Shown one piece after another: positions 2 through 20,049 of a stretch of 23,000 bases of DNA. Every line of letters begins with the position of its first letter. Position 1 is the stretch's first letter. The DNA comes from Pseudomonadota bacterium. Lineage in GTDB: Bacteria; Pseudomonadota; Gammaproteobacteria; Xanthomonadales; Xanthomonadaceae. The notes under the pieces were generated by a model. That model ran no database searches, had not been told where the DNA came from, and saw nothing but the letters and a program-made list of their open reading frames with translations. Position numbers and translations under genes: made by a program. The stretch spans positions 1-23,000 of the forward strand of contig JAEWAG010000019.1 of assembly GCA_023391775.1 (NCBI GenBank), given 5' to 3'.

Positions 2-1066
2 TTCGTGGACCACGCCGTCCGCAATTTCTACTCGGTGTCCATCTCCGGCTACCACATCGCCGAAGCCGGGGCGAACCCGATCAGCCAGCTGGCCTTCACC
101 CTGTCCAACGGCTTCACCATCGTGGAGTACTACCTGGCGCGCGGGATGAAGATCGACGACTTCGCGCCCAACCTGAGCTTCTTCTTCAGCAACGGCATGG
201 ACCCGGAGTACACCGTCATCGGCCGCGTGGCCCGCCGCATCTGGGCCCGCGCCATGCGCGAGCGCTACGGCGCCAGCCCGCGCAGCCAGATGATGAAGTA
301 CCACATCCAGACCAGCGGCCGCAGCCTGCACGCGCAGGAGATCCAGTTCAACGACATCCGCACCACGCTGCAGGCGCTGTACGCGCTGTTCGACAACTGC
401 AACAGCCTGCACACCAACGCCTACGACGAAGCCATCACCACGCCCACGGAAGAGTCCGTGCGCCGCGCCGTGGCCATCCAGATGATCATCAACAAGGAGC
501 TGGGGCTGAACTTCTGCGAGAACCCCTGGCAGGGCAGCTTCATCGTCGACCAGCTCACCGACCTGGTGGAGGAGGCCGTCTACAAGGAGTTCGAGGCCAT
601 CAGCGAGCGCGGCGGCGTGCTGGGCGCCATGGACACCATGTACCAGCGCGGCAAGATCCAGGAAGAGAGCCTGTACTACGAGCACAAGAAGCACGACGGC
701 TGCCTGCCCCAGGTGGGCGTGAACACCTTCCTGCCCAAGGAACACGCGGGCGAGGTGGCCACCGAGATCGAGCTGATCCGGTCGACGGAAGAGGAGAAGG
801 GTCAGCAGATCACCAACGTCCGCGGCTGGCAGGCCAACCGCAACCGCCTGGCGCCGGAAAGCGAGACCTCCCACGCCCACGTGGTTGAGGATGAAACTGT
901 AGCCGCCGAGGTGCACGACGGGCACGGCCTGGCGTATCTTCAGGACACGGCGCGGCGACGGGGGAACGTGTTCGCGGCGCTGGTGGAAGCGGTGAAGACC
1001 CACTCATTGGGGCAGATCAGTCATGCCTTGTATGAGGTGGGGGGGGAGTATCGGAGGAATATGTAG
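2..1066 (+). CDS. icmF: Fused isobutyryl-CoA mutase, C-terminal part (5' end outside window)
   Basis: Adenosylcobalamin-dependent acyl-CoA mutase; the IcmF family interconverts isobutyryl-CoA and n-butyryl-CoA in the cytoplasm. Only the C-terminal 354 codons are present, and the frame is open to the window edge. The visible part is the substrate-binding barrel of the methylmalonyl-CoA mutase superfamily: [20 protein letters not shown] near the start, then [39 protein letters not shown] and [10 protein letters not shown]. The C-terminal pieces [22 protein letters not shown] and YRRNM are typical of IcmF rather than of the two-subunit methylmalonyl-CoA mutase. The B12-binding and G-protein domains expected upstream cannot be seen. 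The last ~20 codons use AT-richer codons than the rest, just before the AT-rich island. A plain methylmalonyl-CoA mutase is the alternative. Confidence 0.88.
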
Positions 1067-1105
1067 TTCCTGGCTACTAAAAAAGTCGGATTATCGGAGC
1101 TTGTG

Positions 1106-1510
1106 ATGATTGGTTGCGGAGTGTCCATTTCAAGTAACGAAGCGGTTTTCGTGTGGATGGACTTGACTTCTGGAGTGCTTCTGCAACAGGCGAAAGCGAA
1201 GGTCGCGTTGAATGATTCCTACGCGCAGAGCGACGTCATTCAAACTTTCGACCTGATTCGGCAGCTCATTGCCGAACGAAAAACAGGACTAGTAGCGGTA
1301 AGGAAGTCATCTACTTCGGGAAAATTCCCAGCATCGCATGTCGCATTTAGGCTGGAGACTTTAATTGCGCTCGCTTCTCCAGTCGAAGTCCGGTTCATCT
1401 CGCCGCAGGCAATCGCCGCCTTCGTTAAAAAGGCTGAGCCAGTGGTGCCGGATGTCGTGCTGAAGTATCAAACGGATGCTTATCTGGCGCTTGTTGCTGC
1501 AGCGGGGTGA
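1106..1510 (+). CDS. DUF3010-like protein coupled to a protein kinase gene
   Basis: A 134-residue protein. The pattern GCGVSISSNEAVF near the N-terminus, RKSSTSGKFPASHVAFRLET in the middle and VEVRFISPQAIAAFVKK near the C-terminus resembles what I remember of DUF3010 proteins, which are thought to have an RNase H-like fold; I could not search to confirm. Function is unknown. ATG 1106 is preferred because CGGAG lies six bases upstream; GTG 1103 is in frame and equally possible. The stop TGA overlaps the GTG start of the next gene (GTGA, 1507-1510), so the two genes are probably translationally coupled. Base composition is clearly AT-richer than icmF, suggesting acquisition by transfer. No signal peptide or membrane segment is visible. 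Confidence 0.7.
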   Translation: MIGCGVSISSNEAVFVWMDLTSGVLLQQAKAKVALNDSYAQSDVIQTFDLIRQLIAERKTGLVAVRKSSTSGKFPASHVAFRLETLIALASPVEVRFISPQAIAAFVKKAEPVVPDVVLKYQTDAYLALVAAAG

Positions 1511-2583
1511 CAATGCTTACGCAAGCAGTTCGAGATGCCATGCATCGGCTTTCGGAATCATATGAATTCTCTGGTTCGGAAACTAAGGGAGCGAACGGCT
1601 ATGTTTTCTTCGGTACCAATCGAGTTACCGGTGTCCAGGTAGCCATTAAGTTCTATTATTGGGGAGATCAGCCGCAGCTTCATGCGGAGCCTCGCATTCT
1701 TGCGCAGTGCAGCTCTGAAAACGTTGTTCCAATCCAAGTGGCTGAGTTGGTGGGAGATGGTTGGGCAATGTTCGTAACGCCTAGGCTAATAGGAGACTTA
1801 GAAGAAGCGATAAATCGAGAGAGATTTTCTCTGCATCGTGCTCTTGACGCGGCGCGAGATATTTATGGTGGGCTTTGCTCTCTGCATGGACACGGCATTG
1901 TTCATCGTGACCTCAAGCCTGCGAACATACTCATCTCCAATCAGGGAAGGGCGGTTATCGGAGACTTTGGATCGGTTGCGACACTTTCTCCAGAGTCATT
2001 AGATGCGGTTGCATCCAGTCACTCGATTCTGTATCGGCCGCCGGAATCCTTTGAAGCGAATCGATACACGAAACTTGGTGATCTCTACCAAGTTGGTGTG
2101 CTGGTACACGAAATGCTTGGCGGCCCTCTTCCGATTCTACCTGGGGACTGGGTCCAACCTAAGAACCTGCGTGAATACCATGCTCTCGCCACTGAGTTCG
2201 AGCAGAGCCAGTACGTTGATCTTGAAATTTCAACAAAGATCCGCGCAGGTAAGTTGTTGCGCTCCCTGCCATTGCCGTTCTGCGTCCCGAATCGAGTTCG
2301 TTTGTTCATTAAGAAGCAGGTAAGCATAGATCCGGGTGCTCGTGCGAGATCGGCCGCTGACGCAATGTCAACGTTACTCTCGCTTCGTCGTGCTTCGTTG
2401 GATTGGTACATGGAAGGAATGGAAGCGATTGGCTGTGGTAACGGCGTGGTAGTCCGCGTCGAGCCAGTGGGTCAAAACGTCGAGGTTCATGTCGACCGAG
2501 GTAAAGGTCTACGCAGGGATCGATCTCTTGAAGGTTCGTCGCCGGGTGACAGTTGCGAGCTAGCGAACGCTCGTTTCGCTTGA
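1507..2583 (+). CDS. Serine/threonine protein kinase, stand-alone
   Basis: A Hanks-type protein kinase of 358 residues counted from GTG 1507; an in-frame ATG at 1513 is the alternative start. The domain spans about residues 18-295. There is a glycine loop near KGANGYVFFG, the lysine in VAIKFYYW (K48), the catalytic loop HGIVHRDLKPANILI (D135, N140), a DFG segment (GDFGS, D153), YRPPE in the activation/P+1 region and GDLYQVGVLVHEML as helix F. The key catalytic residues are present, so it should be active. Residues about 300-358 form a short C-terminal extension with beta-like alternation and no recognised domain. No transmembrane segment is seen, so it is probably cytosolic, unlike PknB-type sensors. 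It overlaps the DUF3010-like gene and shares its low GC. Substrate unknown; partnership with the upstream protein is inferred from coupling. Confidence 0.85.
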   Translation: MTMLTQAVRDAMHRLSESYEFSGSETKGANGYVFFGTNRVTGVQVAIKFYYWGDQPQLHAEPRILAQCSSENVVPIQVAELVGDGWAMFVTPRLIGDLEEAINRERFSLHRALDAARDIYGGLCSLHGHGIVHRDLKPANILISNQGRAVIGDFGSVATLSPESLDAVASSHSILYRPPESFEANRYTKLGDLYQVGVLVHEMLGGPLPILPGDWVQPKNLREYHALATEFEQSQYVDLEISTKIRAGKLLRSLPLPFCVPNRVRLFIKKQVSIDPGARARSAADAMSTLLSLRRASLDWYMEGMEAIGCGNGVVVRVEPVGQNVEVHVDRGKGLRRDRSLEGSSPGDSCELANARFA

Positions 2584-2633
2584 GATTCGGACTGCGCGAT
2601 TGAGGATACGCGGCACGAGTCCCTGGGCTTGTG

Positions 2634-3956
2634 TCAGAAGCCGTCACCGATCTCATTGTCGGCGGGATTCCACGCTGTCTTCGCGATTCCAGTGCATTCC
2701 GCTACGAGAAGATCGAGTACAGCCTCAATCTTGTGGAAGTCATATGTGCCATTTCGCACATTTTCCGTAGTCTGCTTTAGAAATTCTTTGATATATGATT
2801 CCTTGTATTGCAGCGATCCATGGTAGGAGCTGAGACTACTTTTGTAGTTGGTCCAAAGCACCTGTGCTGGTGGTCGGCCACTCCCATCGAGATCGAGATA
2901 GCATTCGATTGCTGCTGCGCGTCTGTTAATGTCTGAATTGTGGGTTCCTTGCGGGCCGTGAGCTGGAAAGGAGCGAAAATCATCCATCTCGGGCAGCATG
3001 ATTCCCCGCATATTAGTGGGCAATGTGAGCGATGAAAGGCGCTGGTGAGCGTCAAGTCCTTCGGCGTCGTTATCGAACACAAAGATGACTTGGTTCTGCA
3101 CATCAATCTTTGCGAGACCCTCGGCAAACTTCACAAGATTGCCAGTGCCGGAGAAAGGATGACTTTCACTTACATCGATAAATTGAAAGAAGTCTGCAAT
3201 TTCCGGGCGTAGCAGTGCTATCGCGTGCTTAAGGATATGAACGTCAGAGCTACCTTCAGTCGCGATCAAGAACCTCTCTCTTCGCCTGGCGTTGGGCACG
3301 AATTCCCTTTCCTCTGCCCATCCTGCGTTCACCAGTGGCCCGTACTGCCAGACGACAGGTGCATCATGATTTATCTCAACCTCTGCCAGGAGCCGCATCA
3401 CTGAGTAAGGGTGAAGAATGTCTATCAATGCTCCAAAATGACTTCGCTCCGAGTATGCATGGATGTCATAAGGACGGTGATTGGGTATTCTCTCATATTG
3501 CACGTCTTTGAAGCGATCTTTTATCTTGGCTCTGCCTGCATCGTCAGAGTATGAGATATAAGTGCTATCAAGACTTTCGATGGGGTGTGCGGTGGCGAAT
3601 GCAAGGAACTCCTTAAAGTTCATCAGATCAGGAACTGACTGACTATCGTCGTCCTGCAATGACAACATTTCCTCACGCCAACTCCGTGCGACGGATTCGT
3701 ATTCTCGCTGCACGCGATCTAGGTCGAAACCTAGCAGCTCAAGGCGGGGGGTGACATCTTTAAGCGATCTTGCAAATGCCATCTCGGAGGATGTCGGGTC
3801 TGCGCCCTCCTGCTGGTACCACTCATAGTCAAGTTGGTCACTCTTGACCGCTTGGCGATCTATTTCCTGAAAAATTGGTCCATGATCTATACCCCGATGA
3901 TTCTTGCTGTAGGTGATAGTCATGCCGCCCACTTCGAGTGTAATTTCAGTGCCCAC
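2634..3956 (-). CDS. TOPRIM-domain protein of the HEPN/Toprim-associated type
   Basis: A 440-residue protein read leftward and convergent with the kinase gene (50-base spacer). The N-terminal region, starting GTEITLEVGGMTITYSKNHR, matches my memory of the N-terminal domain found with HEPN and TOPRIM proteins. The C-terminal half has the TOPRIM signatures: FLIATEGSSD (E234 of the EG motif) and VIFVFDNDAEG (D295 and D297 of the DxD motif), followed by AAAIECYLD (E351), a further acidic position seen in OLD/Toprim nucleases. This supports a metal-dependent nuclease or nicking activity; a role in phage defence is inferred from family context. The start is GTG at 3956, preceded by AAGGGGGC. Composition is AT-rich like its neighbours. 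Confidence 0.72.
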   Translation of the reverse strand: MGTEITLEVGGMTITYSKNHRGIDHGPIFQEIDRQAVKSDQLDYEWYQQEGADPTSSEMAFARSLKDVTPRLELLGFDLDRVQREYESVARSWREEMLSLQDDDSQSVPDLMNFKEFLAFATAHPIESLDSTYISYSDDAGRAKIKDRFKDVQYERIPNHRPYDIHAYSERSHFGALIDILHPYSVMRLLAEVEINHDAPVVWQYGPLVNAGWAEEREFVPNARRRERFLIATEGSSDVHILKHAIALLRPEIADFFQFIDVSESHPFSGTGNLVKFAEGLAKIDVQNQVIFVFDNDAEGLDAHQRLSSLTLPTNMRGIMLPEMDDFRSFPAHGPQGTHNSDINRRAAAIECYLDLDGSGRPPAQVLWTNYKSSLSSYHGSLQYKESYIKEFLKQTTENVRNGTYDFHKIEAVLDLLVAECTGIAKTAWNPADNEIGDGF

Positions 3957-4022
3957 CTTGCCCCCTTACGTCAGTCTTAAGATCTAGACGGACCAGAATA
4001 CGCGCCAAAGCGACCCGCGTAA

Positions 4023-4040
4023 GGCGGGCTTGAGCCCGCC
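4023..4040. repeat. REP-like hairpin 1
   Basis: Perfect palindrome GGCGGGCT-TG-AGCCCGCC, with flanks CGTAA on the left and CTACG on the right. It resembles the short GC-rich palindromes that REP-associated transposases act on. It lies in the 220-base spacer between the TOPRIM gene and the transposase remnants. Confidence 0.7.
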
Positions 4041-4089
4041 CTACGCCCACCACATCTACCGCGTCCGTCATGCCGCTTTGCTTTCGTAG

Positions 4090-4107
4090 GGTGGGCCTTG
4101 GCCCACC
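4090..4107. repeat. REP-like hairpin 2
   Basis: Perfect palindrome GGTGGGCC-TT-GGCCCACC preceded by CGTAG. Fifty bases from REP-like hairpin 1, with similar design and flanks, so the two probably form one bipartite REP unit. Confidence 0.7.
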
Positions 4108-4143
4108 ATCGTTGCGGATCAGAGCGAAGGGGACGGAGGTAAT

Positions 4144-4208
4144 TAATCCCTTGCTCGGAATATAGGGACCACAGAGAAAAGGGGTCAGGTTCATTTTCCA
4201 AGGGATTA
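4144..4208. repeat. 10-bp perfect inverted repeat around a transposase-end copy
   Basis: TAATCCCTTG (4144-4153) is exactly complementary in reverse to CAAGGGATTA (4199-4208). Between them lies one copy of the GGGGTCAGGTTCATTTTCCA end sequence (4181-4200), overlapping the right arm by two bases. It could be a hairpin of the ancestral element or a chance product of its decay. Confidence 0.5.
4181..4200 (+). repeat. Outermost left copy of the transposase-element end
   Basis: GGGGTCAGGTTCATTTTCCA. One of three left-side copies of the element end; see the element at 4320-5123. This copy is followed by AGGGATTA instead of the AGC of the other two. Confidence 0.7.
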
Positions 4209-4219
4209 CGCGGAGAATA

Positions 4220-4318
4220 GGGGTCAGGCTCATTTTCCAAGCTCTGCCGACTTCGGTCGCTCGCGTAACGTGACTTCCATGCTTCTTCCGACGAGTGTCT
4301 CACGCCGCTGTTGAAAAA
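4220..4318 (-). pseudogene. Remnant of a second transposase 3' end with its terminal repeat
   Basis: Read leftward, bases 4233-4318 encode a fragment ending in ETLVGRSMEVTLRERPKSAE-LGK and a stop. This closely parallels the C-terminus of the adjacent transposase (EALVGRSMEVRSRGRPRAAQ-LGK and a stop). The stop is immediately followed by another copy of the end sequence, GGGGTCAGGCTCATTTTCC (4220-4238). So a diverged second copy lost everything but its last ~28 codons and end. Differences are spread along the fragment, suggesting two related elements rather than a recent tandem duplication. Confidence 0.75.
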
Positions 4319-4319
4319 G

Positions 4320-5123
4320 GGGGTCAGGTTCATTTTCCAAGCTGTGCCGCCCTCGGCCGCCCGCGTGACCTGACCTCCATACTCCGTCCGACCAGTGCCT
4401 CGATCTGTTGTCGGAAGCGGTCGTTCCCGAACGCCTTGTTCTGGCGGGTGTGGGCGCGTAGGGCATCCTGGGTCTCTGCATTGAGCGCCTCCTGGAACAT
4501 GGCCTGGTAGGCACGCAGCCGGGTAGTGGTGTCCTGGCCGAGCGCCAGGTACTGCGGATGCGGGGTGATGCGCCGGTCGTGTATCCCCAAGGCGTTGTGC
4601 CGGTAGCTGGACCAAGGGTAGTCGCCAGGCTGCTGCACCATGCGCGCACGCACGGGGTTGAGTTCGATGTAGCGATAACAGGTCAGCAGGTAGGTGTCGC
4701 TGTCGACGAGCGCCGACTTGAACCGCCCCTCCCACAGAGTGCCCGTGCGGCCGTATCGCGCATTGAATGCACCCACGTAACGGCGACCGATGGCCTGCAT
4801 CATGCGCGAGGCGCCGCCGGTGGCCTCCGGCGTCACCAGCAGGTGCACATGGTTGGTCATCAGAGGCGTGCAGGGCGCACCCGTGCTTGTGCGCTGCCTC
4901 ATAGAGCTCCTGTCGGTAGTTTTGGTAGTCGGCAAGGCCAGCGAAGCAAGGCTGCCGATCGTTGCCGCGCTGTACGATGTGCTGCGGCACGTTCGGCAGG
5001 TCAAGTCTGGGCAGGCGGGCCATCTCGCTTCCATGCGATGGGTTGAGCACAGGGTGGCGCGGGCGGCGTGCAAAGCGGGATCGGACAAGGCCCTGGTGCG
5101 GCGTCAGAAATGAACCTGACCCC
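4320..5123 (-). mobile_element. REP-associated tyrosine transposase element with inverted ends
   Basis: An 804-bp unit. GGGGTCAGGTTCATTT at 4320-4335 is repeated in reverse complement as AAATGAACCTGACCCC at 5108-5123, a perfect 16-bp inverted pair enclosing one transposase reading frame. The left end overlaps the transposase stop codon. The frame is broken, so the element looks immobile unless a related transposase acts in trans. The exact outer limits are inferred from the repeats. Confidence 0.65.
4330..5023 (-). pseudogene. REP-associated tyrosine transposase (Y1_Tnp family), frameshifted
   Basis: The N-terminal half begins MARLPRLDLPNVPQHIVQRG at 5023 and reads to AAHKHGCALHA. The C-terminal half, in another frame, continues with MTNHVHLLVTPEA (the HUH motif HVH), YVGAFNARYGRTGTLWEGRF, YRYIELNPVRA and GDYPWSSYRHNALG, ending at 4330. 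The break lies near 4865-4875. The family normally reads ALHA-YVLMTNHVHLL, but here the bases go from GCCT straight to CTGATGACC, consistent with loss of about five bases. These enzymes are single-strand transposases linked to REP palindromes, and two REP-like hairpins lie nearby. All catalytic segments are still readable, so the inactivation looks recent. A sequencing error is less likely but possible. Confidence 0.85.
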
Positions 5124-6668: not shown

Positions 6669-7041
6669 GGGATCCGTTTGGCGGGCGACGGCACCGACCT
6701 CACCGTGCCGGGCGCGAGGTTTTGCTCCATCCGCAACGCGTCAACCTCCCGTTCTCCTGGCCACTGCGGGCCACGGCACCGCTTTGGTGGTGCTTCGCCG
6801 GCCAAGCGTGCGTGCGAGCAGTCTATTGGCACTTTGAGCCGGCACGCAGCGCCGCGGTGCCTCCCCGTCATGCCCTTATTGGCATGTTTCCGCGCGTTAT
6901 TCGCATTGCTGTGGCCCGGTCAGCGGCCGCATTGCCGTGGCTATCCTATGCCGGCGCGGGGCGGTGCCCTGGCAGCGACGCGGCGTCAGCATGACGCCGC
7001 GCGCGCAGCAATCCGGACAGACCATGGGGAGGTGGGGACTG
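6669..7041. other. Intergenic region upstream of the arabinofuranosidase gene
   Basis: About 370 bases with no gene I can support. GC-rich reading frames cross it but have no start signals or recognisable protein. It probably carries the promoter of the arabinofuranosidase gene; I could not pick a convincing -35/-10 pair. A strong ribosome site, GGAGGTGGGG, lies at its right end (7028-7037). Confidence 0.5.
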
Positions 7042-9129
7042 ATGGAGCATCAACACAAGGTGGACCTGATGCGGCGCAACCTGCTGCTGGGTTCGGCGGC
7101 ACTGGGTGTGGCGGCGTGCATTCCGCCGGTTTTCGCGGCCTCCGGCGGCATCACCGCCACCATCAATCCCGCCGCAACGCGTCCGCCGATTTCGCCGATG
7201 ATCTACGGCGGTTTCATCGAGCACATCGGCAACCTGATCAACCACAGCCTGTGGAGCGAGGTGCTCGACGACCGCAAGTTCTATTACGGCGTCCTGGCCG
7301 AGCGCGACAGGAAGCCGGACGATCGCCGCGGCGCGATGGGCTTCATGGAGAAGTGGGTGGCCATCGGGCCGGTCTCCGCGATCGCGCTGGATACCGAACG
7401 TGCCTGGGTGGGCGAGCACAGCCCGGTCGTCACCGTCGACGGTTCGCAGGAGCGGGGGATGGTGCAGCACGGCCTGGCCCTGAAATCCGGTACGCCTTAC
7501 GACGGCCGCATCGTCCTGTGGGCCGACCCGGGGGTGACGGTCACCGTCAGGCTGGTCCGTGGAGATGGCGGCAAGACGGTTTCCACCCGGGTGCGCGCGT
7601 CGTCGCAATGGCAGACGCAACGCTTCCGTTTCGAACCTGGCATGGACACCACCGACGCGCGGCTGGAGATCGTTGGCCAGGGCCGTGGCCGCTTCGGCGT
7701 TGGGGCGGTGTCGCTGATGCCGGCGGACAACGTGCGCGGGTTCCGCGCCGACACCGTGGCGCTGATGAAGCAGATGAACTGCCACATCCTGCGGATGCCG
7801 GGCGGCAACTTCATCTCCGCGCACGATTGGGAAGACAGCATCGGCGACCCCGACAAGCGCCCGCCCATCATGGACCCGGTGTGGAACGCGGTGCAGCCCA
7901 ACGACGTGGGCGTGGACGAGCTGCTGCAGCTGTGCGAGCTGATCGAATGCGAGCCGTTCTGGTGCGTGAACACCGGCTTCGGCGACCCGCGCTCCGGCGC
8001 CCAGCTGCTCGAGTACGTCAACGGCGGCGCCGAAACCGAGTGGGGCGCCAAGCGGGCGGCCAATGGCCGCAGCAAGCCCTACGGGGTCAAGTACTGGGCG
8101 GTGGGCAACGAGATGTACGGCCACTGGCAGTACGGGCACATGGCCCGTGACCAGTACACGGTCAAGCACAACATGTTCGTGGACGCCATGCGCAAGGTGG
8201 ACCCGGACATCTACATCGTGGCTCCCGGCGGTTTCGTCGACGAGATGACTACCGGCCAGGGCATCTTCATCGAAGGCCAGCCGCAGGTGCATGTGGGCTC
8301 GGATCGCGACTGGGCCTACGGCATGCTCAAGGACAGCTGGGGCAGGTTCGATGCGCTGGGCACCCATGCATATCCGCCGGCGGGCAAGCGCTTCGACCTG
8401 GCCACCGGCAAGCTGGTGGATGTCAACCAGACGCTCAACGAGTGGGTGCACCAGATGCCCGATCGCATCCGCACCATGGTCGACGCCTGGGAGCAGTACA
8501 AGAAGCACTTCCCGGAACTGGAGAAGGGCAGCGTCAAGGTGTTCTTCGACGAATGGGCCTTCCATTTCGAGGACGACCTCAAGGGCGCCCTGGCAATCGC
8601 CGCCGCGTTCCACGAGTTCTTCCGCCATACCGACTTCATCGCGATGGCCGGTTTCACCATGGCCACCGGCTGGTTGAACTTCGACCGCACGCGCTCGCAG
8701 ATCAGCATCAAGGGCCGGATGTTCCAGTTCTACCAGGAGCGCTTCGGCACCGTGCCGGTATTGGTCAACGGCAACTCGCCCACGCCCGCGCCGAAGTACC
8801 CGGTCGGCGGTGACCAGCCCAGCGTCAACACCGGTGGCGACACGTATCCGCTGGACGTGTCCGCGGCGCTGACCGCCGATGGCAGGACCCTGGCCGTGGC
8901 CGTGGTCAACGGCACCGAAGCGCCGCACAGCTTCTCGCTCGCGCTGCAGGGCTTCAGGCCCAAGGCGGCGGGGCGCTGCTGGAAGTTCACCGGCCCCGGC
9001 CCGGACGCGAAGAACCCGCTCGGGGAGCCGGAGCGCGTCGGTGCCAGGGAGTCGACGTTCGACGCCTCGGCCGGGTCCCTGACCATCGCCCCGGCAAGCG
9101 TGGAGATCTACCACTTCGAGCGGGCCTGA
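7042..9129 (+). CDS. Alpha-L-arabinofuranosidase, GH51 type, exported
   Basis: A 695-residue glycoside hydrolase expected to remove arabinose side chains from arabinoxylan or arabinan. The start ATG 7042 follows GGAGGTGGGG at good spacing. The N-terminus has a twin-arginine motif (MRRNLLLGSAALGVAACIPP, R11-R12) and a hydrophobic stretch, so Tat export is likely; the cysteine at 26 could make it a lipoprotein, or cleavage may follow VFAA. Catalytic segments fit GH51: acid/base in KYWAVGNEMYGHW (E357) and nucleophile in VKVFFDEWAFHFE (E504). ISPMIYGGFIEHIGN near residue 50 and RMPGGNF near 250 are also typical. The C-terminal part is beta-rich, as in the family's C-terminal domain. The gene stands alone; the GH11 xylanase 4 kb downstream suggests a shared arabinoxylan theme. 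Confidence 0.9.
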   Translation: MEHQHKVDLMRRNLLLGSAALGVAACIPPVFAASGGITATINPAATRPPISPMIYGGFIEHIGNLINHSLWSEVLDDRKFYYGVLAERDRKPDDRRGAMGFMEKWVAIGPVSAIALDTERAWVGEHSPVVTVDGSQERGMVQHGLALKSGTPYDGRIVLWADPGVTVTVRLVRGDGGKTVSTRVRASSQWQTQRFRFEPGMDTTDARLEIVGQGRGRFGVGAVSLMPADNVRGFRADTVALMKQMNCHILRMPGGNFISAHDWEDSIGDPDKRPPIMDPVWNAVQPNDVGVDELLQLCELIECEPFWCVNTGFGDPRSGAQLLEYVNGGAETEWGAKRAANGRSKPYGVKYWAVGNEMYGHWQYGHMARDQYTVKHNMFVDAMRKVDPDIYIVAPGGFVDEMTTGQGIFIEGQPQVHVGSDRDWAYGMLKDSWGRFDALGTHAYPPAGKRFDLATGKLVDVNQTLNEWVHQMPDRIRTMVDAWEQYKKHFPELEKGSVKVFFDEWAFHFEDDLKGALAIAAAFHEFFRHTDFIAMAGFTMATGWLNFDRTRSQISIKGRMFQFYQERFGTVPVLVNGNSPTPAPKYPVGGDQPSVNTGGDTYPLDVSAALTADGRTLAVAVVNGTEAPHSFSLALQGFRPKAAGRCWKFTGPGPDAKNPLGEPERVGARESTFDASAGSLTIAPASVEIYHFERA

Positions 9130-9141
9130 CCGCGGCCGGTC

Positions 9142-9165
9142 GTGCCCGGCTGCCTGGCCGGGCAC
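9142..9165. terminator. Hairpin after the arabinofuranosidase gene
   Basis: Perfect 9-bp stem GTGCCCGGC/GCCGGGCAC with a 6-base loop, 12 bases after the stop codon. No T-tract follows, so it is either a weak terminator or an mRNA-stabilising hairpin. Confidence 0.55.
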
Positions 9166-9191
9166 GTGCCGTGCGAGGAAATCCCATGCAC

Positions 9192-9217
9192 GCCCGGCAT
9201 GGCATGCCGCGCCGGGC
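9192..9217. terminator. Second hairpin in the convergent spacer
   Basis: GCCCGGC (9192-9198) pairs with GCCGGGC (9211-9217) across a 12-base loop that itself contains GGCATGCC. It sits between two converging genes and could act on both; no T-tract on either strand. Confidence 0.45.
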
Positions 9218-9244
9218 ATCCGGGTGCTCAAAGGCGCGAAGGGA

Positions 9245-9913
9245 TCAGGTGTGGAAGCCCTGCGCCTCCGGATCCTCGTGCAGGCGCGGCATCTTCATCC
9301 AGTGCCAGTAGCTGGTTTCGACCTTCTTCTTCTTTCCCGCGCTTTCCAGGTCCGTGCCCGAATACTGGATGTGGATCGCCAGGACCAGTTCGTCGTCCGC
9401 GGTGCGGGCGATGTAGTCGGTCTGGAGGATGGACCTCGGTACTTCCGGGTCCAGCCCCAGCACACGCGCGGCAGCGGAGTTGGACGAGTGGTCGTGGGTG
9501 GCGACCTGGCGCCAGCCGTGTCCGACGCACGGGGTCTGTACCTCGGCCAATGCCGTATAGGCGCTGCCCGAGCGGCCGCCGGGGCCGGGAATCTGGTTGG
9601 CCAGGTAGTACACCGTCTCCAGCGCCCGCGGCTCGATCGCGATGTACGAACGCGGGGCCACCGCCAGGTTGAACAGGAACGGCCCGGCCCAGCGGAAGTG
9701 CGGGAGCAGCTGGCCATCCTCCACCACGGAGCCGGCCGACGGTTCGCCCAGGTGCCAGACGCCAACGATCTCCGGGCAACCGCCCGTCAGCGGGGTGTCC
9801 ACCGCGCCGTAGCGGTCCCCATAGGCCGTGGCGACCTCGGGCACCGGGCCGCTGCTGCACCCGGCAAGCCCGATAACGGCGGTCAACAGCAAACCCGGAA
9901 GCAACCTGCGCAT
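9245..9913 (-). CDS. Lipoprotein of unknown function
   Basis: A 222-residue protein starting MRRLLPGLLLTAVIGLAGCS, a lipoprotein signal with lipobox LAGC (C19). The residue after the cysteine is serine, which by the E. coli rule favours the outer membrane. The mature part holds PEIVGVWHLGE, FLFNLAVAPRSYIAIEPRAL, a glycine-rich NQIPGPGGRSGSAY and SYWHWMKMPRL. I do not recognise a family. Start 9913 is chosen because the signal peptide begins there; the frame is open further upstream but that part is Arg/Pro-rich and unlikely to be coding. Read leftward, convergent with the arabinofuranosidase. Confidence 0.8.
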   Translation of the reverse strand: MRRLLPGLLLTAVIGLAGCSSGPVPEVATAYGDRYGAVDTPLTGGCPEIVGVWHLGEPSAGSVVEDGQLLPHFRWAGPFLFNLAVAPRSYIAIEPRALETVYYLANQIPGPGGRSGSAYTALAEVQTPCVGHGWRQVATHDHSSNSAAARVLGLDPEVPRSILQTDYIARTADDELVLAIHIQYSGTDLESAGKKKKVETSYWHWMKMPRLHEDPEAQGFHT

Positions 9914-10129
9914 ACGACGGCCCCTGTGCGATGGATGGAGCGCGCATCTTATGGGGTGGCGGGCGCCCGTGCGGAGCCCGCCCGGGCAGTGCGCAGAGGT
10001 GCCGCAGGCCGCCTGCTCAACCCTCCAGCGGAGGCGGGCAGGGCGCCGGCCGTTGCCCTTATGGGTCCGGTCTTGCACGACGTCATCCACCACGGCCGGG
10101 CAGGCCCTCCGCGGCGTGAGCGTGCCCGC

Positions 10130-10804
10130 TCAGCGGGAATGGGACGCGTCGGCGCCGAGCTGGTTGATCGCGTCGTTCTCCACCACGCGGGGCGGGGTGG
10201 GCATGCGGGCCAGCGCCAGCATGGCCCGGCCCACATGCGCGGTGCTGGTGACCAGGCCGGGCGCCAGGCGTATCCCCAGGCCCATGGCGGGCGTGGCCAG
10301 CGCATAGAACGGCCGCATCCAGGCATGGGGGCTGCGCTGCCCGTGCGCGGGCTGGATGCCGCCGGGCCGCAGCATCACCGTGGTGATCGGCAGCGCCGCC
10401 AGTGCGGCCTCGGTCCGGCCCTTGATCCGCAGCGGCATGATGCGGCTGGTGGGGTCGGCGTGGGCGCCGGAGATGTAGAGCAGGCGGCCGCCCGGGTTGC
10501 GCTGCGCATAGGCATGGGCCACGTACAGGGTCAGATCATGGGTGACGTGGTGGTAGCGCGCTTCCGGCGTGCCCAGCGGCGGGGCGCCCGCACAGTAGAA
10601 GCAGGCATCGAACGGAGCGAGGCGGTCCAGCACGCCGGCCAGATCGTCGAACCGGTCCACCACCAGCTCCTGCACGCGCGGATCGGAATGGCCAAGCGCG
10701 CGGCGCCCGAGCACGGCCACCCGGGTGACCTCCGGGTCGGCCAGGGCCTCGGCCAGCACGCCCTGGCCGACCAGTCCGGTGGCGCCTGTCATCAGGATGC
10801 GCAT
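10130..10804 (-). CDS. NAD(P)-binding Rossmann-fold protein (SDR/NAD-epimerase-like)
   Basis: A 224-residue cytosolic protein with the nucleotide-binding motif MRILMTGATGLVGQGVL at its N-terminus (TGATGLVG) and CFYCAG after the fourth strand. VTHDLTLYVAHAY and LLYISGAHAD correspond to the later strands of the extended or atypical SDR fold. No clear YxxxK catalytic pair is visible, as in NmrA/NAD(P)H-binding 10 type proteins, so a redox or sensing role is equally possible. Start 10804 is preferred over the in-frame ATG at 10825 because GGCGGAG lies at the right distance. Divergent from the cytochrome b561 gene. Confidence 0.82.
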   Translation of the reverse strand: MRILMTGATGLVGQGVLAEALADPEVTRVAVLGRRALGHSDPRVQELVVDRFDDLAGVLDRLAPFDACFYCAGAPPLGTPEARYHHVTHDLTLYVAHAYAQRNPGGRLLYISGAHADPTSRIMPLRIKGRTEAALAALPITTVMLRPGGIQPAHGQRSPHAWMRPFYALATPAMGLGIRLAPGLVTSTAHVGRAMLALARMPTPPRVVENDAINQLGADASHSR

Positions 10805-11159
10805 GCGAGTCTCCGCCAGAGCCATGGGCGCCCGAGTCTAGCGCCCGGCGTGTAGGCCGGCATGTTCACCGCCGCTGGCGCGTGCCTGCCGGAGCCGCGT
10901 CGGTTGCCAGTACATCCGGCGCGATCCATGCGACCTTGCTGCGGCCGCAGCACAGGGGGCCGCGGAGGGATGTGCGCCTGCAACGGGGAAGCCCGTGCGG
11001 GTCATGCACTTCATTGCACCTTGCGTGGGTCGCCGCCCAAGACACCGCGGGTGTCCCATGAGGGGCTCCCATGCCCGCCACGCCCGTGACCCGGCAGGGA
11101 TCCGGATTGGGTATCGTTGGCCTCCACCGAAGGCACCGCCGCACCCACCGGAGCGCCCC
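10805..11159. other. Divergent promoter region, no gene
   Basis: 355 GC-rich bases between the leftward SDR gene and the rightward cytochrome b561 gene. It must hold both promoters, but I could not identify convincing promoter boxes, an operator or an RNA element. Confidence 0.45.
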
Positions 11160-11690
11160 ATGAAACCCGATACCCGGCAACGCTATGGAACCCTCTCCCG
11201 CCTGCTGCACTGGGGCATGGCGGTACTGGTGGTGTGGCAGGCGCTGAAGCTGGCGGACCGCATCGACGACGGCCAGCACTGGATCGGCCAGGTGCTGGTG
11301 CCCTGGCATGTATCCATCGGCACGCTGGTCGGCGTGCTGATCGTGGTGCGCATCGCCTGGGCACTGCGCAACCGCCAGCGCCGTCCGCCGGCGCCGATGC
11401 CGCCACTGTTGGGCATGCTGGCCCGCGCCGGACACATCGCCCTGTATCTGGCCCTGCTGCTGATGCCGTTGAGCGGCATCGCCATCCTGGTCGGCAATGG
11501 CTATGGCCTGGAGGCGTTCGGCCTGCAGCTGGTGGCACCTGGCACGGAAATCCCGTGGCTGGCTGCGTTCGGCAAGGTGGTCCACTCGCCGCTGGCTTGG
11601 CTGCTGGTGCTGCTGGTCATCGGCCATGTGGCCGCAGCCCTGTGGCATGGGCTGGTACGCAAGGATGGCGTGCTGCGCCGGATGCTGTAG
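11160..11690 (+). CDS. Cytochrome b561, CybB type
   Basis: A 176-residue inner-membrane di-heme protein that transfers electrons within the membrane, probably from quinol. Four hydrophobic helices are visible: around residues 14-30, 48-67, 88-111 and 143-163. Histidines at 17 (LLHWGM), 50 (PWHVSIG), 142 (VVHSPLAW) and 156 (IGHVAAALWH) sit at the helix positions and spacing expected of the heme ligands in the CybB family. PLSGIAILVGNG is a typical loop segment. Start ATG 11160 follows CCGGAGCG at seven bases. Alone in its transcription unit. The electron acceptor cannot be deduced. Confidence 0.92.
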   Translation: MKPDTRQRYGTLSRLLHWGMAVLVVWQALKLADRIDDGQHWIGQVLVPWHVSIGTLVGVLIVVRIAWALRNRQRRPPAPMPPLLGMLARAGHIALYLALLLMPLSGIAILVGNGYGLEAFGLQLVAPGTEIPWLAAFGKVVHSPLAWLLVLLVIGHVAAALWHGLVRKDGVLRRML

Positions 11691-12032
11691 CGATCCGCGC
11701 GCCACGGGCCAACGGACGTGCGCGACGGAAGCGAGCGCATGCGGCATGGCAGGGCGGGCGGGGGCACACGGCCTGGAGGATCCTGTCGCGGTAACAGCCG
11801 CCGGATTGCAGGAGGGCACGCGAAGTGGCCGGCAGGAGGCTGGCCGGTTGGTTGGTTCTCAAGCGCGCGAAAGGGCGTTTCACCGTGAGCCCGACCCCTG
11901 CCAGTCGGGTCTCCCGCGACCCTTGAGCCCGGTCCGCCGTACCTTGGGTGATATGCGTCGCCTACCGGGCTTCGAAGGCTCCCCGCCAAGGCGTTGCGCA
12001 GTCCATCCGAACGGATTCGAGGAGACACGCCC
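11691..12032. other. Intergenic region, no gene
   Basis: 342 GC-rich bases between cytochrome b561 and the Sel1/TPR-like gene. A possible weak hairpin CCCGAC (11890-11895) with GTCGGG (11904-11909) is the only structure noted. GAGGAGA at 12019-12025 is the ribosome site of the next gene. Confidence 0.45.
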
Positions 12033-12743
12033 ATGCAGGCTTTCGCCCTTCTTCTAACGCTGTCGGTTTCGCTCGCCGCCCCGCTGGCAGTGGCCAAGGA
12101 CGACCCAGGCACCATCGATCGCGATGACCAGGCGGTCATGGCGTCCAGGGCCTTCCTCTTCGGCCATCCGGACCTGAAGTACCGGACCGAGGGCTTCCTG
12201 GCCTACGACGAAGGCCGCTTCGACGAGGCGCGCACGAACTTCCTCAAGGCCGCTGAGTTTGCCGACAAGCCGGCGCAGGCGGTGCTGGCGGAGATGGCCT
12301 GGAAGGGAGTGGGGCAGCCGGCTGACCGGGCGATGGGATATGTCTGGGCGGACCTGGCGGCCGAGCGCGGCTATCGCCAGTTCGTGGTCCAGCGGGAGCG
12401 GTACTGGTCGCAGCTGGACGCAGCCGAGCGTGAGCGGGCGCTCGAGGAGGGCGCTGCGATCATGGAGCAGTACGGCGACGCCGCAGCCAAACCCCGGCTC
12501 GTCAAGCAGATGCGGCTGGCGCAGCAGGGCATGATGAAGTCAGTGCGTCGCTACCAGGCCGACGTCTATGTGGTGGGCCAGAACGGCGTGCTCAGCCAGA
12601 TCCGCGGACATGACTTCTACGCGCCCAAGTTCTGGCGGCCGGAGCAGTACTTCGAGTGGGTGGACGCGGTCTGGAAGGACCCGCCGGCCGAGAACGTCGA
12701 TGTGGGGCCGGTGGAGGAGGTCGAGCCCGGCCTGGATCGCTAG
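12033..12743 (+). CDS. Secreted Sel1/TPR-like repeat protein
   Basis: A 236-residue protein with an N-terminal signal peptide (MQAFALLLTLSVSLAAPLAV then AKDD), so it is probably periplasmic. The mature part contains GFLAYDEGRFDEARTNFLKA followed by AEFADKPAQAVLAEMAWKG, two helix-hairpin units of the TPR/Sel1 kind (A-positions with G-rich turns). YVWADLAAERGYRQF is a further Sel1-like unit. The C-terminal ~60 residues, rich in W, Y and P, are not repeat-like. Such repeats mediate protein contacts; the partner is unknown. ATG 12033 follows GAGGAGA. A decayed relative lies at 6475-6668. Confidence 0.82.
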   Translation: MQAFALLLTLSVSLAAPLAVAKDDPGTIDRDDQAVMASRAFLFGHPDLKYRTEGFLAYDEGRFDEARTNFLKAAEFADKPAQAVLAEMAWKGVGQPADRAMGYVWADLAAERGYRQFVVQRERYWSQLDAAERERALEEGAAIMEQYGDAAAKPRLVKQMRLAQQGMMKSVRRYQADVYVVGQNGVLSQIRGHDFYAPKFWRPEQYFEWVDAVWKDPPAENVDVGPVEEVEPGLDR

Positions 12744-13079
12744 CCTGTGAGGTTGCGCCTTCGACGGGACACGGGCACGTCGTTACGGGTGGTTGGCCCG
12801 GCTGTTGCCCCGGGGATGGGTGCGTCAGGTGCGCGGTTCGGGGAGCCGTCCCCCGGTGCGAACTGCAGAGTCAGGGTTGGACCGCCGGTGCCGGGGCGTC
12901 CTCTGCGGCGAGTCCGCCCCTCCCGGGGGGCGGTTTCGGTGCCGGCGCCGGCGTCTGGGCCTGGCGCCGGCGTCAACAGCATTCAAAGGGATGCGCCCCA
13001 CACGGCCGGGGCCCGCCTGCTTGGCTAAACGGCTCAGGCAGGCCATGCTGCAGGCTCGTCCCATGTCTACCGGTATCTC
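12744..13079. other. Intergenic region with GC-rich direct repeat
   Basis: 336 bases without a supported gene. GGCGCCGGCGTC occurs twice within 12940-12975 and is partly self-complementary. A six-codon reading frame (MSTGIS, 13063-13083) ends by overlapping the xylanase ATG as ATGA, but it is too short to call a gene. Confidence 0.4.
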
Positions 13080-13922
13080 ATGACCTGTCGCCTCACCCAA
13101 GCCTTCCTGACTTCCGCACTGATCCTGGGCCTTGCCGGCTGTGACCGCGCTCCTGCGCCCGAAGCCGCCGCCGATGCCGCGCCGCCGCAGGCCGCGGAGC
13201 CGGCCGCCGCACAGGCCAAGCCGCCGATCAGCAAGTTCAAGGCCTACACCCAGCGCTTCGAGGGCGAGACCCTGCTCACCCAGAGCCATGCCACCGGCCA
13301 CGTGGGCGACTGGTTCTTCACCCACTGGAAGGATGGCGGCGAGGCCTCGTTCAAGCTGGATCCGCAGGGCAACTTCAAGATCGACTGGGTCGACGGCAAC
13401 TACAACTACGTCGGCGGCCCGGGCTGGGAGCGCGGCGACCGCAACCGCGTCATCGGCTACCACCTCAACGAGGATTCCGGCGCCAGCTACGTGACCCTGT
13501 ACGGCTGGGGCTACAACAAGGACATGGACCCGACCGACCCGGCGCACCTGGTCGAGTACTACGTGGTCCAGCGCGGTGTGCGCACCGGCGGCCAGGGTGG
13601 CGAGCAGGGCGTGAGCTTCACCAGCAACGGCGTGGAATACACCACCTACCGCACCGTGCGCACGCAGAAGCCGTCGATCAACAACACCGCCACCTTCTAC
13701 CAGTACTGGAGCCGCCCCAAGGAGCAGCTGCCGCTGGGCCAGGACCACAAGATCATCTTTGCCGACCACGTCGCGGCCTGGGAGCAGAACGGCTGGAAGC
13801 TGCCGGACATGGACAACTTCGACGCCAGCGACGACCCGACCTACCAGGTCTTCGCGGTGGAGGTGTTCCTGATCGAGAACGGCGGCACCGTCTCCGGGCG
13901 GGTGTGGGACGCGGCGGAGTAA
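13080..13922 (+). CDS. Endo-1,4-beta-xylanase, GH11, with lipoprotein signal
   Basis: A 280-residue xylan hydrolase. The N-terminus MTCRLTQAFLTSALILGLAG-C is a lipoprotein signal (lipobox LAGC, C21), followed by an Ala/Pro/Glu-rich linker to about residue 48. The catalytic domain follows the GH11 beta-jelly-roll order: VTLYGWGYN, LVEYYVVQRG (nucleophile E159), YTTYRTVRTQKPSINNTATF then YQYWS (the family hallmark), FADHVAAWEQNGW and YQVFAVEVFLIENGG (acid/base E261). Both catalytic glutamates are present. Most GH11 enzymes are freely secreted, so anchoring is unusual. Residue 22 is aspartate, which in E. coli retains lipoproteins in the inner membrane; whether that rule holds here is unknown. 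No clear ribosome site is seen. Confidence 0.9.
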   Translation: MTCRLTQAFLTSALILGLAGCDRAPAPEAAADAAPPQAAEPAAAQAKPPISKFKAYTQRFEGETLLTQSHATGHVGDWFFTHWKDGGEASFKLDPQGNFKIDWVDGNYNYVGGPGWERGDRNRVIGYHLNEDSGASYVTLYGWGYNKDMDPTDPAHLVEYYVVQRGVRTGGQGGEQGVSFTSNGVEYTTYRTVRTQKPSINNTATFYQYWSRPKEQLPLGQDHKIIFADHVAAWEQNGWKLPDMDNFDASDDPTYQVFAVEVFLIENGGTVSGRVWDAAE

Positions 13923-13986
13923 CCCGCGATCCGGTGACCATGAGGTCGCTGCCGGCCTGCGTGGCTGGCAGAACACTTCAGGTCCG

Positions 13987-14017
13987 CTGCACTCCGCTTC
14001 TTTGCGGCGGAGTGCAG
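13987..14017. terminator. Strong hairpin after the xylanase gene
   Basis: Perfect 11-bp stem CTGCACTCCGC/GCGGAGTGCAG with a 9-base loop, 65 bases after the xylanase stop. No T-tract. It may end or protect the xylanase mRNA; it could also be a regulatory stem in the leader of the next gene. Confidence 0.6.
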
Positions 14018-14111
14018 CGCCTCCCTCAACGTGGGCGCTGCGGTATATCTTCGGCGAGGCACGGCCCGCCTGGTGCGGTGCCCGGGAAGAACGCGAGCCC
14101 AAGGGGGAGCG

Positions 14112-14549
14112 ATGAATCACGGCAGCACGCTGGCAGGACTGCTGATGGTTGCAGTCTCACTGGTCGCAACCAGCGCCCAGGCGCAGACCATTCGTGCGCA
14201 CCAGCCCCGCGCCCAGCACAAGCCGCCGCCACAGGCACCGCGGCAGCCTTACAACTCCATGGCCCGCGACACGACGCCGTTCAACTGCGAGCAGTACCGC
14301 GCCCATCCGCATCCGGGCATGGTCGGCTTCTGCGAGGGAGTGGAGCACTCGGTGCTGAAGGCAGAGGCCCAGCGCCAGGGACGTCCCGGGGCATCGGCCA
14401 GCGTCATCGCCCTGCCGGCGATGGGCAGCGCAGAAGCACGCGAGCTGGGATATGCCTGCATTGGTGGCCAGGCCATGCGCCGGCTGGCCAACGGCTGGGA
14501 ACAGGTCATGGCCCGTGAGGGCGGCTGGCAGCGTTGCCGTGGCGGCTGA
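14112..14549 (+). CDS. Small secreted protein with four cysteines
   Basis: A 145-residue protein with signal peptide MNHGSTLAGLLMVAVSLVAT and likely cleavage after SAQA, so it is probably periplasmic or secreted. After a basic Pro/Gln-rich stretch (residues 28-46) come cysteines at 59 (FNCEQYRAHPHPGM), 74 (GFCEGVEHSVL), 116 (YACIGGQAM) and 142 (QRCRGG), suitable for two disulfides. The family is not recognised. ATG 14112 follows AAGGGGGAG. Its stop is 98 bases before the pseudouridine synthase start. Confidence 0.78.
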   Translation: MNHGSTLAGLLMVAVSLVATSAQAQTIRAHQPRAQHKPPPQAPRQPYNSMARDTTPFNCEQYRAHPHPGMVGFCEGVEHSVLKAEAQRQGRPGASASVIALPAMGSAEARELGYACIGGQAMRRLANGWEQVMAREGGWQRCRGG

Positions 14550-14647
14550 TCGGGCAAGCCGGCCAGCATTGGTGTGTGTCCTCGGCCCCCCGCAGGCACG
14601 GGACGCGCCCACTTCCGCGAACGCGTAGCGGTAAGCAGACACCCACC

Positions 14648-15547
14648 ATGTCGACTCCGCCCAGCCGCCTGCAACTGCCACCCGGCCCGTGGCGCACCGT
14701 GCTCGAGGCCCTGGTCGCGCACTTCCCGCGGATCCCCGAATCGCAGTGGCGCGAGCGCTTCGTGCAGGGGCGCGTGCTGGACCAGCACGGCAAGCCGTTG
14801 CCACTGGATGCACCGTATCAAGTCGGCGCGCTGGTGCAGTACTTCCGCGAAGTCGCGGATGAGACACCGCTGCCGGGCGGCGAATACGTGGTCCACCACG
14901 ACGACCACCTGCTGGTGGCGTTCAAACCGCACTTCCTGCCCGTGGCCCCGACCGGCGCCTGGGTGCGGGAAACCCTGCTGACCCGGATGGTCGCCCTGAC
15001 CGGCAACACCGACCTGGTGCCCCTGCACCGGCTGGACCGCGACACCGCCGGGCTGGTGATGTTCTCAACGCAGCGCGCTACCCGTGGCGCCTACCAGGCC
15101 CTGTTCCGCGAACGCCGCATCCGCAAGTTCTACCGCGCCGTGGCCGCGGCCTTGCCGGGGCTGAGCTTTCCCCGCGTCCATCGCAGCCGCCTGGAAGCAG
15201 GCGAGCCCTTCTTCCGCATGCGCGAGGTCGAGGGAGAACCCAACAGCGAGACCGTGATCGACGTGCTGGCGCGCGACGGTCCCTTCTGGACCTACCGCCT
15301 GGAGCCGGTCACCGGCCGCAAGCACCAGCTGCGCGTGCACATGGCCGCCCTGGGCGCGCCGATCCTGCATGACCGGTACTACCCGGAGCTGCAGCCGCAA
15401 GGGCCGGATGACCTGGAGCGGCCGCTGCAGCTGATGGCGTGTGGGTTGACTTTCGATGATCCCCTCAATTGCGTGGCATGCAGGTTCTGCATTGAGGAGG
15501 GGAAGGGATCAGCCCCTTGGGCAGGGGGCTTGGGGGGGGCGGACTGA
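14648..15547 (+). CDS. RluA-family RNA pseudouridine synthase
   Basis: A 299-residue enzyme converting uridine to pseudouridine in RNA. It has the catalytic segment PLHRLDRDTAGLVMFS (D130) and the family segments LLVAFKPHFLPVAPTG, RIRKFYRAV and GRKHQLRVHMAALGAPILHD. The N-terminal ~60 residues correspond to an S4-like or RluA-type leader. The exact target RNA cannot be told. The C-terminus is odd: after LQLMACGLTFDDPL, where family members usually continue with a short GEPRRF-like tail, this protein reads NCVACRFCIEEGKG then a Gly-rich end. The break coincides with the start of the second accessory island, so the native tail may have been replaced by an insertion. ATG 14648 begins the conserved part; the upstream open frame is not protein-like. 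Confidence 0.88.
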   Translation: MSTPPSRLQLPPGPWRTVLEALVAHFPRIPESQWRERFVQGRVLDQHGKPLPLDAPYQVGALVQYFREVADETPLPGGEYVVHHDDHLLVAFKPHFLPVAPTGAWVRETLLTRMVALTGNTDLVPLHRLDRDTAGLVMFSTQRATRGAYQALFRERRIRKFYRAVAAALPGLSFPRVHRSRLEAGEPFFRMREVEGEPNSETVIDVLARDGPFWTYRLEPVTGRKHQLRVHMAALGAPILHDRYYPELQPQGPDDLERPLQLMACGLTFDDPLNCVACRFCIEEGKGSAPWAGGLGGAD

Positions 15548-15733
15548 TCGTCCTATCTGAGGAGTGGTTGGCAGCGCTGCCACCTTGGCACATCATTTGG
15601 AAGCGTGCCTTCGATCGTTGGCTTTAGCACTCATGTAAAGCGTTGCGCTACGCCATCCGATGGCTGTGAATTCAGCAGCTCAGACGGCGCCACAATTGTT
15701 ACTTCGAAAGCTTCAGAATTACGGGGATCTTTA

Positions 15734-16615: not shown

Positions 16616-16634
16616 TTTTGCTTCCTATAATAAA

Positions 16635-18005: not shown

Positions 18006-18436
18006 GCCTTTCCCCTGGTTTCGATGCGCTTTGCCAGCGCCATGATGATTTCCGCCCTGTGTGCAGGCGTATGCCCCCTGAGCGAGCATTCCCATACAGT
18101 CTCGACATGCCATCCGATGGCTGCCAGTCTCCCTGCGGTCTGGAGGTCCCGGGCGCGATTCGCATCCACCTTAGCTTTCCAGAACTCAGGACGCGTCTTG
18201 GGCAGACGGAACAGGTGGCAGTCATGCTGGTGCCAGAAGCAGCCGTGGACGAAGACAACCGTCCGGTACTTCGGCAGAACAATGTCGGGCCGGCCGGGCA
18301 GCCCCGCGCCCCCCAGCCGGTAGCGGAACCCGAGAGCATGGAGGCCCTTCCGGATCTCCAGCTCGATCTTTGTGTCCTTCCCCCGGATCCGCGACATCAG
18401 CGCGGAACGGCGCTCCGGGCTGATGATGTCCGCCAT
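17978..18436 (-). CDS. vsr: Very short patch repair endonuclease
   Basis: A 152-residue strand-specific mismatch endonuclease. It nicks next to T:G mismatches that arise when 5-methylcytosine made by the neighbouring methyltransferase is deaminated. Residues match E. coli Vsr by position: RGKDTKIE near the start, GRPDIVLP with D51, HGCFWHQHDC with C66, H69, H71 and C73, and WECSLRG with C117, giving the catalytic and zinc residues. The start ATG overlaps the methyltransferase stop by one base (TGATG), so translation is coupled. The last ~14 residues extend past the conserved fold and overlap the endonuclease start. Confidence 0.96.
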   Translation of the reverse strand: MADIISPERRSALMSRIRGKDTKIELEIRKGLHALGFRYRLGGAGLPGRPDIVLPKYRTVVFVHGCFWHQHDCHLFRLPKTRPEFWKAKVDANRARDLQTAGRLAAIGWHVETVWECSLRGHTPAHRAEIIMALAKRIETRGKACPSGRSST

Positions 18437-19677: not shown

Positions 19678-19697
19678 CTCTGACTCCGGGAAAGATC

Positions 19698-19722
19698 GGG
19701 ACATTCTGTCCGAATGTGTCCC
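19698..19722. promoter_or_regulatory. Candidate autoregulatory operator of the methyltransferase gene
   Basis: GGACATTCTGTCC at 19699-19711 is a palindrome with half-sites GGACA/TGTCC, and a further TGTCCC half-site follows at 19717-19722. It lies 22-45 bases upstream of the ATG at 19677. From memory, regulators of the SsoII/Ecl18kI methyltransferase group bind GGACA-N3-TGTCC in front of their own genes. The match is suggestive, not proof. Confidence 0.55.
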
Positions 19723-19735
19723 GTGGGGGAAGGGG

Positions 19736-19763: not shown

Positions 19764-19790
19764 GAAACGAGGAGCTGGAATTTCTGTCGT

Positions 19791-19997: not shown

Positions 19998-20049
19998 CGT
20001 CAACTTCTCCGGTCAGCGCGGGTGCGCAGCCGGATAGTGGCGGCGTCCC

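Follow-up and report, generated by a model that had tools for sequence, protein, structure and literature searches.

The window, by which we mean the whole stretch of 23,000 nucleotides analysed here, opens with the C-terminal part of an IcmF protein on the forward strand (positions 5..1066; NF045497, E 1.1e-182), and a variable block follows the 3' end of this gene. Two forward-strand genes lie at the start of the block. The first (1106..1510) encodes a DUF3010 protein of 134 amino acids, and the second (1513..2583) a Hanks-type Ser/Thr kinase of 356 amino acids. They are followed by a convergent gene on the reverse strand, which encodes a HEPN/Toprim protein of 440 amino acids (2634..3956; PF18871, E 1.1e-71). 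Abi-like architectures in which the N-terminal domain of such proteins is joined to HEPN, TOPRIM and Mrr domains have been described (PMC3710099). The gene was not counted in the pair: a role as third partner was considered and found unsupported, as the ORFs read beside other pairs look different.

For the first gene, ATG 1106 was favoured as the start, with a GTG present at 1103 as well. The methionine matching ATG 1106 is the start in 8/9 other aligned DUF3010 proteins, and one further protein (P0008) is listed with a longer N-terminus. The junction between the two genes (1500..1515, forward strand) holds the stop codon of the first (TGA, 1508-1510) and two possible starts of the second, GTG 1507 and ATG 1513. 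A four-base GTGA overlap, as given in the preliminary description, is formed if GTG 1507 is used, but with ATG 1513 the kinase gene begins 2 nt past the stop codon. We favour ATG 1513, since three of the five closest homologues among the matches listed (P0014, P0016 and P0018) have the equivalent start, the other two starting further in, and since the motif GGGGTGA, which includes the stop codon, lies 5' of it as a possible ribosome-binding site. The overlap is thus conditional, while the genes are closely coupled whichever kinase start is used.

The GC content of the two genes (0.519 and 0.517) is low compared with that of icmF (0.644), as described earlier, and positions 6831-23000 have a value of 0.657. 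The low-GC block is nevertheless not made of the two genes only: with 0.498 for the HEPN/Toprim gene, it comprises three. Promoter and terminator patterns searched for in 900-4200 showed no excess over shuffled sequences. A second low-GC patch (about 0.51-0.53) was observed at 15605-16615, where a 336-aa ORF had no Pfam or NCBIfam match at E 1.

To place the block in context, the 3' side of icmF was compared among relatives. An icmF match at 1e-120 was present in 135/200 genomes of the order, and in 8/12 relatives the alignment ended no more than a few bases from the stop codon of icmF. No blastn match at 1e-10 to window positions 1067-4316 was found on the icmF 3' sides of 13 close relatives, while later parts of the window do match relatives, for example 6831-9171 at 94% in L123. 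Defence-type cargo was seen within about 6 kb of the icmF end in at least 6 of the 13 relatives (L122-L134; the scan covered seven): a DNA methylase, a GmrSD/NsnA-type protein and a HEPN protein in L123, a methylase in L124, GmrSD/NsnA-type and AAA proteins in L125, PDC-M33A in L126, a GmrSD/NsnA-type protein in L130 and a type II nuclease hit in L132. L126 and L132 perhaps reflect one event, as both carry an ORF with identical length and start. The icmF 3' side of L127 gave no PADLOC hit. Judged by these alignments, the stretch after the icmF 3' end (window position 1066) looks like an insertion hotspot with differing cargo, and the pair and the HEPN/Toprim gene fill the same slot as the cargo of the relatives.

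Two other observations concern the same stretch. In the genome with the L124 locus (G409, C1:229930-232489), part of icmF (residues 112-353, 88% identity) is present a second time ~0.8 kb downstream of the full gene and brackets a small insert, as would be expected if elements insert at the gene end; in the window, a search for another copy of the 3' end of icmF found none. At window positions 4180-4345, repeated copies of a GGGTCAGGTTCATTTTCCAAG-like sequence adjoin an ORF (4330-5088) that we take, from its motif, to encode a REP-associated transposase.

The assignment of the first protein to DUF3010 was borne out by PF11215, with 71.9 bits against a gathering threshold of 25 and residues 1-128 aligned to profile positions 1-133 of 137. 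The RNase H fold that had been proposed for it was also found: by fold comparison, the predicted structure has an RNase H fold, specifically that of RuvC. The relationship appeared only in the fold comparison, and no match was obtained when solved structures were searched with a profile built from the DUF3010 alignment. In its available part, a 2014 survey likewise assigns DUF3010 to a RuvC/Tex-related RNase H fold and describes conserved, exonuclease-like active-site residues (PMC3985635). The protein shares 14% identity with the RuvC Holliday junction resolvase, and no PADLOC model matched it. The RuvC-like (YqgF) domains of Tex and Spt6 sit inside large transcription factors, unlike the DUF3010 protein.

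To examine the active site, residues were placed in register with those that we take to be the catalytic D7 and E66 of RuvC. The register was obtained from the fold alignment together with a local HH alignment to E. coli RuvC, the latter not significant alone (probability 0.7%) and used only for this placement. The window protein has S7 at the D7 position and R66 at the E66 position, and accordingly lacks the conserved Asp on strand 1 and Glu on strand 4 of the RuvC type. At these positions, 18 DUF3010 proteins paired with a kinase were compared with 33 stand-alone members of the same Pfam family. At position 7 (strand 1), 33/33 stand-alone proteins have E or D, but only 7/18 paired ones have an acid; in the remaining 11 it is S, T, N, Q, K or M, and in the clade of the window S or A. 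Position 67 is acidic in 14/33 stand-alone and 0/18 paired proteins, and position 66 in none of either group. The usual two-metal site would therefore be hard to build in the paired proteins.

Other positions do carry acids in the paired proteins. E84 is kept in all 18 paired and all 33 stand-alone proteins, and position 124 in the last helix carries an acid in 13/18 paired proteins (D124 in the window) vs 0/33 stand-alone ones. Position 124 may correspond to the last acids of RuvC, which likewise belong to the C-terminal helix. In these alignments the acid appears as a trait of the paired branch that a dead RuvC site would not explain. Together with the invariant E84, and set against the loss of position 7, it suggests that the RuvC-like site has been altered rather than plainly erased. 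Some different or residual nuclease activity is therefore conceivable, the more so as position 66 is non-acidic in stand-alone proteins too and 7/18 paired proteins keep the first acid. The pI values of the 18 paired proteins range from 5.1 to 9.4; being weakly basic, they lend DNA binding weak support. A conserved phosphorylation site in the DUF3010 partner was also considered and dropped, because the S/T-rich loop of the window clade (residues 68-71) is not S/T-rich in distant pairs.

The second gene encodes an intact kinase, as had been claimed. PF00069 matched with 100.9 bits against a cut-off of 31.7 (E 1e-28), the best 50 matches in the fold comparison were all protein kinases, and K46, E59, H131-R132-D133, K135, N138 and D151-F152-G153 are kept in the window and in 18/18 pairs compared. 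The structure model (pLDDT 92.5) is confident to the C-terminus and gives the extension noted earlier a shape, a small beta/alpha domain with a small beta-sheet and a helix from about residue 296. The best PADLOC model by E-value was MAD6 (1.9e-35 over the kinase domain), but the kinase reached 74.4 of the 460 bits set for MAD6 of the MADS system in NCBIfam (NF047741) and 33.6 of the 990 bits set for PglW of BREX/Pgl (NF033442). The best PD-T4-6 model, which has no curated cut-off, aligned to the kinase domain with 85.3 bits over profile positions 7-211 of 292 only.

To learn whether the two genes belong together, both proteins were used as queries. The DUF3010 protein retrieved 10 proteins including itself, and the kinase 853 at E 1e-20 (120 listed). 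Among the matches listed, contigs sized 296504, 2221, 3327 and 3502 occur in both sets besides the contig of the window, which suggests that they carry the pair. A genome scan with the kinase N-lobe returned nine loci, and a DUF3010-like gene lay directly upstream in 9/9 (window-clade profile, E 5e-13 to 3.2e-37). When plasmids were searched by tblastn with the Pseudomonas kinase, four records were obtained, two each from Rhizobium and Cupriavidus. The pair was present in both records that were opened, whose replicons measure 0.45 and 1.95 Mb; matches H5 and H7, of the same genera and identity as H4 and H6, lie outside the two read.

Scans for PF11215 approached the question from the other side. 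In the phylum of the Stenotrophomonas locus, 40/398 genomes had a match. Three of these genomes (G001, G042 and G226) carry the pair, while 30 loci had no kinase within up to 1.5 kb, and G311 and G287 none in 18 kb stretches; this division covers the 40 genomes except G132 (the genome of L092; E 3.6e-4, under the cut-off), G131, G343, G345 and G238. The genus sample of Pseudomonas sp. DTU12.3 had DUF3010 in 206/298 genomes, with one paired and 29 unpaired among 30 loci read. In the class of the Motiliproteus locus it was found in 6/274 genomes, one paired and five unpaired. As unpaired G008 belongs to both the first and the third set, this makes 63 distinct short-flank loci without a kinase. 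In the phylum of the Anoxynatronum locus, 2/199 genomes had DUF3010, at three places, all paired; one Anoxynatronum genome contained two different DUF3010-kinase pairs on separate contigs (L083 and L085/L087). The pair thus extends from Pseudomonadota to a genome of what we take to be the Clostridia. In the loci read, the kinase always occurs with DUF3010, whereas DUF3010 mostly occurs without the kinase, which indicates two branches of the family. One of them, with 206/298 matching Pseudomonas-genus genomes and 29/30 read loci lacking the kinase, is an ordinary chromosomal branch. On a Roseobacter plasmid (L002, 4956-5423), a DUF3010 gene resembling the kinase-linked type had no kinase match in 10.4 kb, and it may be an orphan or have a different partner.

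The two proteins also diverge in step. For the 18 pairs, which consist of the window, the four inferred from contigs common to both protein lists and 13 read from loci, the p-distance matrices correlated with r 0.877; the value was 0.664 for 15 pairs and 0.576 for the 12 most distant, and 0/2000 permutations reached each r. With our choice of start codons, the junctions of the 13 other pairs measured -8 to +4 nt; L010 could also start further upstream. The adjacency on which the earlier proposal depended is therefore found in other genomes, and the two genes almost certainly form a conserved unit. Viruses and E. coli gave no examples. The kinase N-lobe alignment had no match when viruses were scanned with it, and the DUF3010 alignment of the window clade found no relative in either genomes or viruses. 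Among phage records, nothing matched the DUF3010 protein at E 0.01 or the kinase from Pseudomonas at E 1e-15. Distant relatives may be missed by these scans because of their short patterns or thresholds. In 5,426 E. coli genomes there was no match to the DNA of the Pseudomonas pair.

The surroundings of the pair were compared with those of stand-alone DUF3010 genes. Every ORF of 150 aa or more lying no further than 8 kb from one of 14 pair loci was collected (113 ORFs, some surely not genes; L005 and L087 come from one genome), and 113 ORFs around 10 stand-alone loci in other genomes, obtained by leaving out 39 of 152 proteins, served as control. At E 1e-20, PADLOC gave 133 families (25 listed) near the pairs vs 8 near the stand-alone genes, the latter including RtcR-, mad3-, DpdF- and PsyrT-type families; these figures are to be read as a contrast and not as a count of systems, because several families may match one protein and the controls were not taxon-matched. 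When 20 neighbouring ORFs picked by eye were scanned singly at 1e-15, hits were obtained in 6/14 pair loci: PDC-M33A and a type II nuclease hit in L106, type I restriction and PD-Lambda-4_A in L005, PDC-S25 in L107, IetA and IetS in L045, PDC-S46 in L088, and a type I nuclease in L108, where Pfam also recognized McrBC. Among the other eight loci, a YhcG-type nuclease in L009 was the one defence neighbour identified; L006 and L087 are short contigs, and the surroundings of L008, L010, L012 and L044 read as housekeeping. In L107, a possible defence island (9969-14513) follows the Pseudomonas pair, with DUF3800, NADAR and PRTase-CE as well as a PDC-S25 protein that matches ThsA more weakly. With conserved adjacency, defence genes at about half of the loci and a variable stretch after icmF, the view of the pair as a two-component unit in an accessory setting with defence genes is supported.

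A role of the pair in defence or conflict is therefore probable. Against it, the pair is rare (at least 1/398 genomes in the order of Stenotrophomonas, with five candidates scored per genome), and some copies are broken: the DUF3010 copy of Cupriavidus necator pHG1 is interrupted and in two pieces, the L006 kinase is interrupted with its second piece in L077, and the L011 kinase is shortened to 288 aa. No description of a DUF3010-kinase pair was found in titles and the opening parts of abstracts, a search that did not extend to supplements and closed journals, which agrees with the preliminary description of a pairing not seen before. The pair looks like an undescribed two-part variant of kinase-based defence. 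PD-T4-6 is a single-gene defence built on a Hanks kinase. Stk2 is another (PMC11341870, available part), and neither has a RuvC-like partner. The KKP module is likewise a phage defence based on Ser/Thr kinases, whose activity can stop lytic phage and can be triggered by a replication protein of the phage (PMC11341870). It consists, however, of two kinases and a phosphatase, where the window pair has one kinase and a RuvC-fold partner; the genes adjacent to the pair, icmF and HEPN/Toprim, add no second kinase or phosphatase.

Accordingly, we hypothesize that the pair is a mobile two-component defence module with a RuvC-fold regulator or sensor and a kinase effector, a mechanism to which, taken as a whole, we give slightly less than an even chance. 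The upstream protein would probably be a non-cutting subunit, and the downstream kinase, made in step with it through translational coupling, would be the effector. In an uninfected cell, the RuvC-like protein may bind and restrain the kinase or hold it on nucleic acid. A ligand from a phage or another invader, for which branched DNA and a phage protein of recombination or replication are the most likely candidates, would then free the kinase to phosphorylate host or phage proteins, so that growth stops before phage is made. Control is more likely to run from the RuvC-like protein to the kinase, as two RuvC catalytic positions are unconserved in the former and the active site is conserved in the latter. 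A sensor or inhibitor is what would be expected where a nucleic-acid-binding fold lets its strand-1 catalytic position drift while the partnership is kept, the kinase being the sole clearly intact enzyme. We infer not only the defence function but also the physical interaction, the direction of control, the ligand and the kinase targets.

Among the alternatives, the strongest is that the pair is a toxin-antitoxin module kept for its own stability, with the kinase as toxin, the RuvC-fold protein as antitoxin, and phage defence secondary or absent. Type II modules have a small gene first, coupled to a larger one, and the same order and close coupling to a larger enzyme gene are seen here. Plasmid copies of the pair exist, and kinase toxins with a small partner are known from HipBST, as far as the available part of that literature goes. 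The first protein, with its 134 residues, nevertheless has no separate DNA-binding antitoxin domain, the plasmid copies opened are on replicons of 0.45 and 1.95 Mb, and the contrast in defence neighbourhoods between pairs and stand-alone DUF3010 genes is a further point against it. We consider this explanation rather unlikely.

It is more doubtful that the DUF3010 protein cuts nucleic acid with an altered site and that phosphorylation by the kinase switches cutting on, in line with the preliminary description, where the kinase was proposed to modify or control its partner. The predicted RuvC fold, the invariant E84, the acid at position 124 confined to paired proteins and the active-site residues reported in the 2014 survey (PMC3985635) are consistent with such a nuclease, but the frequent loss of the acid at position 7 and its complete absence at 66 and 67 in the pairs argue against it. 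Least probable is that the pair serves in signalling, controls a mobile element or DNA repair instead of defending the cell, and resides in islands by chance, a reading that the four loci with housekeeping surroundings and the common, mostly kinase-free DUF3010 of the Pseudomonas genus sample would suit, but not the rare and patchy spread of the pair across phyla or its contrast with stand-alone neighbours.

A regulator or sensor with a RuvC fold that governs a kinase effector thus remains our preferred reading. In its most specific form, which is speculative and which we think improbable, a catalytically silent Holliday-junction-resolvase fold would sense branched or recombining phage DNA and directly switch the Hanks kinase, with phosphorylation as the killing step. 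If true, this would be a bacterial protein kinase switched by nucleic-acid structure, as the eukaryotic PKR is by double-stranded RNA. To our knowledge, the kinase-based phage defences described so far are few, and their way of sensing infection is largely unsettled; a conserved unit that joins a nucleic-acid-type fold to an intact kinase makes this question directly testable. In relatives, further defence genes could be sought in the stretch that follows icmF, and a confirmed role for the pair would give a function to one branch of DUF3010, a family of unknown function.
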